Positions 88-3,766 of a DNA stretch of 36,352 nt are shown here, piece by piece (within the stretch, counting starts at the first letter, position 1; every line of letters begins with the position of its first letter). The stretch is from assembly GCF_003265365.1 (NCBI RefSeq), contig NZ_AUPM01000041.1:1-36352 (forward strand), written 5' to 3'. Made by a program: the position numbers and the translations under genes. The notes under the pieces are model-generated. The model was not told the DNA's origin and searched no databases. It was given only the letters and a program-made list of their open reading frames with translations. This DNA is from Petrotoga sp. 9PW.55.5.1. GTDB lineage: Bacteria > Thermotogota > Thermotogae > Petrotogales > Petrotogaceae.

Positions 88-122
88 ATTCCCCTTATGT
101 GATTGGGTAGCGGCATCGCTAA
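88..122 (+). repeat. degenerate copy of the two-hairpin repeat
   Basis: It begins with the ATTCCCCTT head shared by the repeats at 3333-3766 and keeps a TGTGA loop. The second hairpin is different: TAGCG-gcat-CGCTA at 109-122. It overlaps the last codons of the minus-strand gene ending at 119, so the element supplies the end of that gene. Confidence 0.4.
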
Positions 123-1073: not shown

Positions 1074-1230
1074 CCTCCGTATATAATATCCGCAAGCAGG
1101 TTTACAGTGAAGTAAATACTTTATTAGGTTTTAAATTCCCCTTCTGTGAAAGCGTAAATGCAGTGCTCTATTTATTTCTAATATCGTTACACTGCGTTAA
1201 AAACACCTGCGGATACTGTATGTGGAGTAA
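1074..1230. repeat. imperfect inverted repeat between two divergent genes
   Basis: Read on the minus strand, 1112-1074 gives TTCACTG...CCTGC..GCGGATAtTaTAT..GGAG. Read on the plus strand, 1188-1230 gives ACACTG...CACCTGCGGATAcTgTATgtGGAG. The arms therefore carry related sequence, in inverted orientation, upstream of the gene at 859 and of the DUF1659 gene. A copy of the two-hairpin repeat lies between the arms. It could be a shared regulatory site or a duplicated end; I cannot tell which. Confidence 0.4.
1135..1200 (+). repeat. diverged copy of the two-hairpin repeat
   Basis: It starts ATTCCCCTTCTGTGAAAG, matching the repeats at 3333-3766 over 15 bases. A second stem, GCAGTG (1160-1165) with CACTGC (1190-1195), has a long loop. 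The first stem is damaged on its 3' side. Confidence 0.45.
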
Positions 1231-1783: not shown

Positions 1784-2779
1784 TTAAAGGTTCTCTGTTT
1801 CAGAAGCCACCATATTATTCCCCGACAACGTCGACTTATAATACAACTCATCGTACAACTTCAAAAAATCCCTAACAGAACTTGCTCCACTCAAATCTAT
1901 ACTCTTACTCTCTTCATCAAACTCAATCTTCAAACCAAAATCTTCGATCATCCTCTTAACTCTATCAAACTCAAACTTCTTATAATTTCCCTTATTAATA
2001 ACACTATAAAACCTCTTCAAATACAAAGACTTATCTTTAATACTCTCATTAAAATTATCAACCCCTACTATCTTAATATCCTTCCCAAAAAGATTATTGT
2101 TCTTTTTTATCTCTTCAATCGCCTTATCTTTTGCATCTTTATACTTCTTATAATACCCAAAATCTCTCTCAAAACAAAACAAACTCCGTATCAAAACAAC
2201 ATCACCAACAACTATATAATCAAAATAATCTTTCGGATCTATTAAAAACTTATTCTTAATCATACTCAATTTCCTAGCACTCAAAGCCAAAATCCTTTTA
2301 TTTTTAAAAATCTTAGATGGAGTTAGGTACTGTATACCTAACATATACCTCTCCCAACCGCTCTTAAAAATCTTCAAAATCAGTCTTAATCTGGTAATCT
2401 CTTCCAAATCCTTAGAGTGGTATAACTTATTATACCTACCCCCTTCAACCCTCATAATTATATCAGAAATATCGCCCACCTGATCCGCTGCATTCTGCAT
2501 GTATAGAAACTTTCTATCAAAAATAGAAGAGCTATATTCCTCTATTTTATCCCTATCATTCTTCTTCAAATTATCCAAAAACTCTATCAAAGATGACATA
2601 AGTATACCTTTAAAAAACTCAGGATCATCATTCGCCAACCAAAAAATATCCTTGTTATCCCCTTGAATAAAGACTTCAAACTCAAAATCAGAAGAATTTT
2701 TAACCAAATCACTTAACTTCTCTAAACTCTCCCTTTCAACAATACTCTCAATCAACTGATCAAAATTTACATCACTCAC
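1784..2779 (-). CDS. kwaB: KwaB, Kiwa anti-phage system (DUF4868)
   Basis: 331 residues starting at GTG, overlapping the end of kwaA by 8 bases, so the two are translationally coupled. The DUF4868 pattern is visible: an N-terminal FEVFIQGDNKDIFWL strand region, then after about residue 185 the DYFDYIVVGDVVLIRS segment followed by CFERDFGYYKKY, the most characteristic part of the family. No membrane segment is present. In the known Kiwa system KwaB is the cytoplasmic DNA-binding effector that works with membrane-bound KwaA to block phage replication. The reading frame is intact and of normal length. Identification rests on family pattern plus the KwaA-like partner directly upstream. Confidence 0.75.
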   Translation of the reverse strand: MSDVNFDQLIESIVERESLEKLSDLVKNSSDFEFEVFIQGDNKDIFWLANDDPEFFKGILMSSLIEFLDNLKKNDRDKIEEYSSSIFDRKFLYMQNAADQVGDISDIIMRVEGGRYNKLYHSKDLEEITRLRLILKIFKSGWERYMLGIQYLTPSKIFKNKRILALSARKLSMIKNKFLIDPKDYFDYIVVGDVVLIRSLFCFERDFGYYKKYKDAKDKAIEEIKKNNNLFGKDIKIVGVDNFNESIKDKSLYLKRFYSVINKGNYKKFEFDRVKRMIEDFGLKIEFDEESKSIDLSGASSVRDFLKLYDELYYKSTLSGNNMVASETENL

Positions 2780-3294
2780 CCTTCTTCACCACCCCAAAAT
2801 AAAACTCAGGAGTAAACTCCCTAACGGACATCTCATCTTCAATCTTCTTAGAAATCAAAAACCCACATCTACTACCTCCAGACTCAGTCTTAACTCTAAA
2901 CTTAACCTTATAAATATTATACCCAAACAAAGAAAGAACAGGGTTAATAACGATCAACTCAGACTTCACATACACATTCCCAACTATAACTAAAATAATA
3001 CCAACAGAAATTAACTCTCTCACACCATTAATACCAATAAAAGGAATGATATAAACAAAAATATACTCAAGCATCCGAACATTCTCTTGAGACACTCTCT
3101 CAATCGAAACTGTCTTAGGCTGAGCATACCTCTTAGCAGAAGAAAAAAGAACAACAAACCCAAAAACAACAAACAACGAAAAAACCGAAAAAACAAACAA
3201 ACAAAAAACTACCGAAATTATTAATCGCAAAAATTACAAAAAGTGGCAAATACGAAAGCAAAAACAAAAAAGACTTAAATAAATTATTAATCAT
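2772..3294 (-). pseudogene. kwaA: KwaA, Kiwa membrane sensor, frameshifted
   Basis: The natural start is the ATG at 3294: GGGAG lies 8 bases upstream and it opens a 53-codon frame (MINNLFKSFLFLLSYLPLF) typical of a first membrane helix, ending at 3133. The rest of KwaA lies in the neighbouring frame, open from 3230 (TTG, no SD) to 2772: a second hydrophobic segment, then AKRYAQPKT, EYIFVYIIPFIGING and a further helix, ending in a soluble tail. Moving from the first frame to the second requires skipping one base. The overlap (3133-3230) holds four runs of six T on the coding strand. Repaired, the protein has about 173 residues and four membrane helices, as expected for KwaA. It is either inactivated, switched by slippage, or affected by a sequencing error. 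Confidence 0.7.
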
Positions 3295-3332: not shown

Positions 3333-3578
3333 ATTCCCCTTCTGTGAAGGGGTGGATGCAGCGTTTTATGCTGCAGCCGGGGTAGTCGGTTCAATTCTGC
3401 TTTAATTCCCCTTCTGTGAAGGGGTGGATGCAGCGTTTTATGCTGCAGCCGGGGTAGTCGGTTCTATTCCCCTTCTGTGAAGGGGTGGATGCAGCGTTTT
3501 ATGCTGCAGCCGGGGTAGTCGGTTTTATTCCCCTCTTGAGAGGGGTGTCAGACTGAAAGTCTGACAGGGTTTGGTAAC
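3333..3578 (+). repeat. array of four two-hairpin repeat units
   Basis: Units at 3333-3391, 3405-3463 and 3466-3524 are 59 bases and essentially identical; a fourth diverged unit is at 3527-3578. Each has hairpin 1 (CCCCTTC-tgt-GAAGGGG) and hairpin 2 (GCAGC-gttttat-GCTGC), then a CGGGGTAGTCGG tail. In the fourth unit both hairpins have new sequences that still pair: CCCCTC-ttga-GAGGGG and GTCAGACT-gaa-AGTCTGAC. The array fills the gap upstream of the Kiwa genes. No ORF of its own is credible. Confidence 0.85.
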
Positions 3579-3582
3579 ATAT

Positions 3583-3601
3583 AATTTGCTGAAAGCAAAT
3601 T
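3583..3601. repeat. perfect 8-bp hairpin with GAA loop
   Basis: AATTTGCT-gaa-AGCAAATT. It has the same stem length and loop as hairpin 2 of the unit at 3527-3578, with an unrelated stem sequence. It is probably another, partial, member of the repeat family rather than a terminator, since no T run follows on the plus strand. Confidence 0.5.
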
Positions 3602-3662
3602 AGTGTAACAGCAAGTAACAAATAAAAATCCAATCATAATTAACGAAAATTTAATAAAACAC

Positions 3663-3690
3663 TTGACAAAATTAAAAAAAAATATATCAT
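3663..3690 (+). promoter_or_regulatory. promoter of the polysaccharide operon
   Basis: Consensus TTGACA at 3663-3668, 16 bases, then TATCAT at 3685-3690. It is the best promoter-like sequence I found on the plus strand before the long gene series. Transcription would begin near 3697, giving a leader of about 100 bases that contains a full two-hairpin repeat. Confidence 0.6.
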
Positions 3691-3708
3691 AATACTATTA
3701 GTGCTTCT

Positions 3709-3766
3709 ATTCCCCTTCTGTGAAGGGGTGGATGCAGCGTTTTATGCTGCAGACGGGGTAGTCGGT
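3709..3766 (+). repeat. two-hairpin repeat unit in the operon leader
   Basis: A nearly exact copy of the units at 3333-3524 (AGACGGGG in place of AGCCGGGG). It lies between the promoter at 3663-3690 and the first start codon at 3797, so both hairpins would be in the mRNA leader. Confidence 0.8.

Follow-up and report, generated by a model that had tools for sequence, protein, structure and literature searches.

What are the short, folded repeats that cluster at positions 3,333 to 3,766 of this Petrotoga contig, and what enzyme, if any, moves them? The window, by which we mean the whole 36,352-nucleotide stretch that was analysed (NZ_AUPM01000041.1, 1-36,352; Petrotoga sp. 9PW.55.5.1), had previously been the subject of a sequence-only reading. 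This proposed that the second hairpin of each unit changes in sequence while its pairing is kept, and that the folded form therefore matters, either as RNA or as single-stranded DNA handled by an enzyme in the manner of REP/RAYT systems. REP-like repeats are common in bacteria, and RAYT is the enzyme known for the GTAG group. We describe here the distribution of these units within and beyond the genus, and their association with a gene of another kind. We consider it probable that the units stem from a mobile element spread across phyla: they would be its non-autonomous form, and its autonomous form would carry a DUF559 nuclease.

Units in the window

The four A-type units (3333, 3405, 3466, 3709) and the B-type unit (3527) of the earlier reading were all confirmed in place, but what it took for a partial unit at 3583 is a spacer hairpin and not a unit. 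The features, all on the plus strand, are as follows.

88..122, +, degenerate unit; overlaps the 3' end of a gene whose tail is weakly DUF4351-like
1135..1197, +, degenerate unit; lies upstream of a pair of small genes
3333..3387, +, A-type unit 1; hairpin 1 CCCCTT/AAGGGG, hairpin 2 TGCAGC/GCTGCA, tail GGGGTAGTC
3405..3459, +, A-type unit 2
3466..3520, +, A-type unit 3, 61 bp past unit 2 in a head-to-tail array
3527..3575, +, B-type unit; hairpin 1 CCCCTC/GAGGGG, hairpin 2 TCAGACT/AGTCTGA
3583..3601, +, spacer hairpin AATTTGCT..AGCAAATT; the inverted A unit is absent at the window copy
3709..3763, +, A-type unit 4; flanked by a promoter-like stretch (by eye) and the start of a sugar-transferase gene

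The architecture of a unit is ATTCCCCT-loop-AGGGGTG, then a second stem-loop, then a tail of either the GGGGTAGT or the GGGTGTGG type. The A-type tail contains GTAG as a bare string of letters. None of 4227 Rfam families matched the window at gathering score and, as in the earlier reading, no gene for a partner enzyme was found in it.

We also noted the surroundings of the units. A Kiwa-type anti-phage pair adjoins the array (window 1784-3230, minus strand): a KwaB-like gene (Pfam E 1.7e-13) and a KwaA-like gene (PADLOC E 7e-21). The matches of this stretch in congeners stand at other places. An open frame at 119-822 on the minus strand consists of a weak sigma-factor-like N-terminal part and a weak DUF4351/Rpn-like tail, and this tail is a multi-copy sequence throughout the genus. 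Positions 1-96, preceding the unit at 88, are repeated in the same genome beside other units (C61, C56, C32 and C74); units thus often lie in, or adjoin, other repeats.

Stem 2 changes while its pairing is kept

Stem 2 was read in 126 of the 129 units that we located in this genome (see below), over 75 nt each. Its paired sequences fall into at least six unrelated classes: TGCAGC/GCTGCA, TCAGACT/AGTCTGA, CTGTGAC/GTCACAG, TGCGAC/GTCGCA, TTCGC/GCGAA and TCTGC/GCAGA, the last of these a single copy. No tail was present inside the 75 nt read of 11 of the 126 units, and a few others gave just 2-4 bp. The variety that had been claimed for the window on the basis of four unrelated hairpin-2 stems is genuine, and larger genome-wide, but two of those four stems (TAGCG/CGCTA and GCAGTG/CACTGC) are weak because 88 and 1135 each represent one degenerate copy. 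Within one class we observed a compensatory change, from TTCGCT/AGCGAA to TTCGCC/GGCGAA, in one copy.

Covariation was measured by an alignment-free shuffle test, rather than with a covariance model, on loci picked by a pattern that is silent on spacer pairing; spacers were of at least 8 nt and G-T pairs were allowed. Across 117 unique spacers (102 loci, many phyla) the mean stem was 5.12 bp, compared with 2.68 bp in shuffled spacers. There are 63 distinct stem pairs among these spacers, and 49 have at least 4 bp; taken singly, 58/117 beat 95% of their own shuffles, many of the spacers being short. A further 45 spacers, from 39 additional loci, gave a mean stem of 4.6 as against 2.56 when shuffled. 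The stem classes, the compensatory change and the shuffle tests agree with one another and with the original proposal, and the covariation of stem 2 is very likely real.

A burst in one genome, and a family across phyla

A search of the genome and its relatives had been suggested at the outset. In the genome of Petrotoga sp. 9PW.55.5.1 (2.08 Mb, 79 contigs), the loose pattern ATTCCCCTN{3,15}AGGGGTG matched at 129 places (63 and 66 on the two strands), as compared to 0 for the reversed pattern that served as control. This search succeeded for the genome itself and, as described below, across phyla, but not for the closest relatives: five Petrotoga congeners gave 0 matches to the loose pattern. 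A survey of 103 Thermotogota genomes found the pattern in six, namely the 129 places above and 1, 1, 1, 4 and 4 in the five others. Same-genus comparison for an empty site was confined to the sugar-transferase leader, where the matched coding part is 80-83% identical; the leaders of three congeners that we read contain no unit.

The copies are intergenic: 2 of 125 unit midpoints fall inside ORFs of at least 120 aa, which cover 124,689 of the 186,064 bases of the same stretches. They stand solo, head-to-tail at a spacing of 61 bp, or as inverted pairs, several of them 154 bp long. These inverted composites (about 154 bp) start with AATTCCCC and end with GGGGAATT; inside complete composites the spacer hairpin seen at 3583 has a B or C unit on one side and an inverted A unit on the other. 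Many contigs start or finish in units. We also found 17 minimal palindromes of the form ATTCCCCT-n-AGGGGAAT in this genome, and none in five other Petrotoga species. A related genus (G036) has two composite copies, one of which adjoins a gene that we took, by eye, for a replication-type gene and that is also seen near unit copies in the Petrotoga genome; this would fit arrival on a mobile replicon. No clean empty site was obtained for the related-genus copy. Taken as a set, the units of this genome are very likely a local burst of a wider family.

That family has the general pattern AATTCCCCT-n-AGGGGTG-[variable stem]-GGGGTGGT, which we recovered in at least 119 stretches of named genomes and in 22 of viral_contigs. 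Its members are found in Chryseobacterium and other Bacteroidota, Clostridia, Planctomycetes, Acidobacteria, Chlamydiota, Proteobacteria, Elusimicrobiota, Armatimonadetes and more. It is very likely that the units are one family spanning bacterial phyla.

DUF559 genes stand between and beside units

A further suggestion of the sequence-only reading, to look for a conserved gene flanked by units, was productive in other genomes: that gene encodes DUF559. In a forward test we used 141 loci (1,004,094 bases), selected by the unit pattern alone, and an HMM built from four DUF559 domains. DUF559 was present in 16/141 unit loci (10 of the first 102, and 6 of 39 fresh loci), and in 16/16 it lies 32-280 bp from the nearest unit. 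The first 10 of these loci have units on both sides of the gene in 8 cases, and in 7 of those the units are convergent. Seven convergent unit pairs, 431-544 bp apart, enclose a DUF559 ORF. Three other convergent pairs enclose no DUF559 (268 bp in L118, 392 bp in L133, 688 bp in L168). At 125/141 loci DUF559 was not found in the fetched stretch, so most units are solo. Judged by their letters, the six DUF559 genes of the 39-locus set are three of a DFDRQ type and three of a FRRQHS type. At the level of genomes, PF04480 is present in 38/49 unit-bearing genomes, with no match in the other 11/49, as compared to 2/14 control genomes.

The reverse test started from the DUF559 genes: 70 strong domains of 49 genomes (E 2.3e-16 or better), the 15 weaker of 85 rows being excluded. 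These genomes had been selected for holding units, which favours this test. Among genes of the DFDRQ type (n=23), units were present within 350 bp on both sides in 17, on one side in 4 and on neither in 2, whereas the corresponding numbers for the other types (n=47) were 2, 7 and 38 (Fisher p 6e-9; random control intervals of the same loci, 130/2782). Seven genes are shared by the forward and reverse sets, and an eighth, L288, is truncated at the locus end in L162. With the seven shared genes removed, 15/17 of the DFDRQ type have units, compared with 8/46 of the others (Fisher p 4e-7).

We also placed the genes on a tree (113 columns, quick method, many forks unresolved). In its main clade of 22 rows (SH-aLRT 92), units lie within 350 bp of 22/22 genes, or 15/15 without the shared ones; a second clade, of the FRRQHSVG type, has units in 7/9, and the remaining rows in 1/39. 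At L283, sister to the main clade, the head of the unit is GTCCCC and escapes the pattern; the frame of this unit, TGGAT...GACGGGGTAGTG, is the closest we have seen to the A type of the window. In L289, a gene of the DFDRQ type is accompanied by a different palindrome. In G033, of the Thermotogota, a DUF559 gene is flanked by two units that share one direction and belong to a related type, ATTCCCCTCTTGGGAGGGGATGG..GGGGTGGG (L310, 1388 and 1934).

DUF559 has 0 matches in the contigs of the Petrotoga sp. 9PW.55.5.1 genome, and none in five Petrotoga congeners. The shortest contig seen in this genome is of 3,177 bases, so that a DUF559 gene bounded by arrays could be missing from the assembly. 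From the loci of other genomes, we conclude that DUF559 is likely to be the cognate enzyme of the units. Within the open-licence PMC literature, no title or abstract start with DUF559 ties it to such repeats, although the link may already have been published.

The DUF559 domain and the palindromes of other clades

The domain was recognised by Pfam (for example E 3.1e-28 in L112 and E 1e-30 in L163). An AlphaFold model of it, based on 8 sequences, has a pLDDT of 86; Foldseek matched this model to 3hrl (E 3e-6), to the catalytic domain of I-Bth0305I (E 2.8e-5, TM 0.67/0.76) and, more weakly, to Vsr (E 0.011). The match to 3hrl was also obtained by sequence (E 1.2e-15). The DUF559 domain is thus predicted to have a homing-endonuclease/Vsr fold.

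A further observation concerns the DUF559 genes outside the main clade, which, read by eye, stand between other C-rich/G-rich palindromes. A stem of at least 8 bp occurs within 200 bp of 38/48 of these genes (26 on both sides), as compared to 8/108 control windows. By the same measure the main clade scores 10/22, because its outer stem is mostly of 7 bp. On plasmids, 10 of 37 DUF559 records were read, by eye: 7/10 loci have C-rich palindromes nearby, and none of the 10 has a CGTC/dRS3-like repeat or, among the palindromes listed, one of the AATTCCCC type. Close relatives of the DFDRQ-type genes are absent from the plasmid and phage records (37 and 3, respectively), all of which are below 60% identity. 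Two loci may be singled out. A DUF559 gene of Neisseria gonorrhoeae (L417, 2005-2418) has a palindrome cluster downstream of it, with CTCTCTCCC..GGGAGAGAG and present twice, and one of Sphingomonas (L421, 1430-1860), with two CCCCTCCCC palindromes, is located between sufB and sufC.

In a nine-row DUF559 clade the domain lies within stop-free frames of 411-1044 residues. Pfam was applied to the flanking halves of six of eleven long DUF559 frames. These halves were assigned to class I tRNA synthetase (L244, L243), to UvrD (L249) and, in L239, to pterin-binding and B12-binding domains (MetH-like); the flanks of two main-clade genes were assigned to Eco57I methylase (L252) and Type ISP (L258). In all, DUF559 is in frame inside long ORFs of tRNA-synthetase, MetH-like or helicase appearance at L239, L243, L244, L249, L274, L280 and L292 (4/7 Pfam-tested), and in most of these the palindromes are read through at the joints.

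Presence, absence and inversion at one Chryseobacterium locus

Variation was found at L191 of Chryseobacterium jejuense, the element of which we searched for in 98 genomes of the genus. The body is present in forward orientation in 21 of 30 loci returned and absent from 9 (one of these, L377, gave no match to the left flank as well). In five fetched loci the body is inverted between the same flanks, and at least nine genomes have it inverted. Of 13 element-less sites examined, seven keep a palindrome of 25-29 bp, AATTCCCCTCC-n-GGAGGGGAATT, with 0-5 mismatches of 22, a match attained by 0/200 shuffles in each case; one has 7 mismatches and five are without a clear palindrome. The G165 site shows no trace. 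The body, 76-85% identical in most, diverges about as much as the flanks or more, so most change there is old. The palindrome at an element-less site could be either the target or a scar remaining after loss.

Proposed mechanism and alternatives

Folded units beside the gene of a DNA-cutting enzyme suggest a little-noticed kind of mobile DNA. We hypothesize that its autonomous form comprises two inverted two-hairpin units, tails inward, around the gene for a DUF559 nuclease of ~115 residues. The nuclease would recognise the palindrome, either as a duplex or as an extruded hairpin, and may cut in or beside its loop, after which repair would insert a copy of the element, or of a solo unit, at the cut. 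The target's outer arms, AATTCCCCT and AGGGGAATT, would become those of the element, the element's own ends rebuilding the palindrome. Because such a target is palindromic, the element could enter in either orientation; and because nothing but the fold and the CCCC/GGGG frame would be needed, stem 2 could drift freely while it stays paired. In the species of the window, a burst may have filled intergenic DNA, and the nuclease may since have been lost, leaving orphan copies, or may reside in an unassembled, repeat-bounded piece. The folded DNA of the units is probably what an enzyme recognises; homing into the palindrome is the best fit, which we rate at about even.

The strongest competitor, with a substantial minority chance of being correct, is that DUF559 is the gene of a passenger homing endonuclease that uses pre-existing palindromes, while something else spreads the units. 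Minimal palindromes do exist without the gene, both in the Petrotoga genome (17) and at 7/13 element-less L191 sites, and this genome has amplified its units although DUF559 was not found in it. What speaks against a passenger is that different DUF559 clades have different palindromes (the 38/48 genes outside the main clade, above), an arrangement that resembles cognate pairs rather than one common landing site.

It is unlikely that a different nuclease-type gene, with the Rpn/DUF4351-like tail, moves the units within the species. Tail matches do stand close to unit motifs (at distances of 34-94 bp in 9 rows, and of 0-2 bp in 5 rows, at 4 places), a count that is biased because the search covered only unit-bearing stretches. 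However, the tail is multi-copy in all five unit-free congeners and so has the appearance of a landing place or a remnant. A search for PF12784 gave no match in the genome, but no control genome was positive either.

The REP/RAYT logic of the sequence-only reading, or that of IS200/IS605, with a Y1 HUH transposase acting on the hairpins in single-stranded form, has in our estimate a slim chance. The hairpin form, high copy number, intergenic placement and REPIN-like inverted pairs would all suit it, but PF01797 has 0 matches in the contigs of the genome (5/14 control genomes are positive), and the gene between units elsewhere is DUF559. Slimmer still are the prospects of RNA elements (leader, terminator or small RNA) under selection on RNA folding: pairing is kept, and unit 4 stands in what is probably the sugar-transferase leader, but units occur at many places on both strands, the window lacks an Rfam match, and the pattern is absent from five congeners as well as from the three congener leaders that we read.

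Returning to the element with a DUF559 nuclease, we tentatively extend it, at somewhat less than an even chance, to DUF559 genes overall. Mobile palindromes may make up a large class that has gone unrecognised, with these genes supplying the enzymes and each DUF559 clade having a cognate double-hairpin repeat of its own. The enzyme would home, in either orientation, into a palindrome that the ends of the element rebuild, and could enter essential genes (class I tRNA synthetase, MetH-like, UvrD-like, methylase) in frame, where read-through would make it tolerated; the high-copy repeats of the window would be orphaned debris. If true, the tie between a small nuclease and palindromes in many phyla would supply a second, testable enzyme class for REP-like repeats. 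It would also give DUF559 genes a role and explain the in-frame inserts in essential genes.

Comparison with known systems

The units resemble REP/RAYT REPtrons in being short, high-copy, intergenic palindromes in which the stem changes with its pairing kept, in standing both solo and as inverted pairs, and in having a version in which units enclose an enzyme gene. They differ in that the linked enzyme is a DUF559 nuclease and not a Y1 HUH transposase, that each unit has two hairpins, and that an AATT-CCCC frame is common across phyla. We rejected REP/RAYT membership, since Y1_Tnp (PF01797) was not found in the contigs of the genome; the related loci suggest the DUF559 nuclease as partner instead.

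According to a 2013 survey (PMC3733652), CGTC-tagged REPs lack a dedicated transposase and some lie inside genes; the feature given there is a CGTC left unpaired at an end of a stem of 8-9 bp. Like the units, CGTC REPs (including Neisseria dRS3 and Rickettsia RPE-4 and RPE-6) are palindromes found in several phyla. As just 2/170 units have CGTC in the 7 nt that precede the head on its 5' side, we do not count the units among them.

With Vsr-like/EDxHD homing endonucleases such as I-Bth0305I, the element shares the predicted fold of DUF559 and a site-specific presence or absence at one locus; unlike them, its gene is bounded by palindromes that also stand alone in high copy, and by eye neither an intron nor an intein was noticed around it at the loci read. 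Finally, MITEs are likewise small non-autonomous elements with inverted ends, whereas each end in the present case is a two-hairpin unit, and no link to a DDE transposase was noticed.
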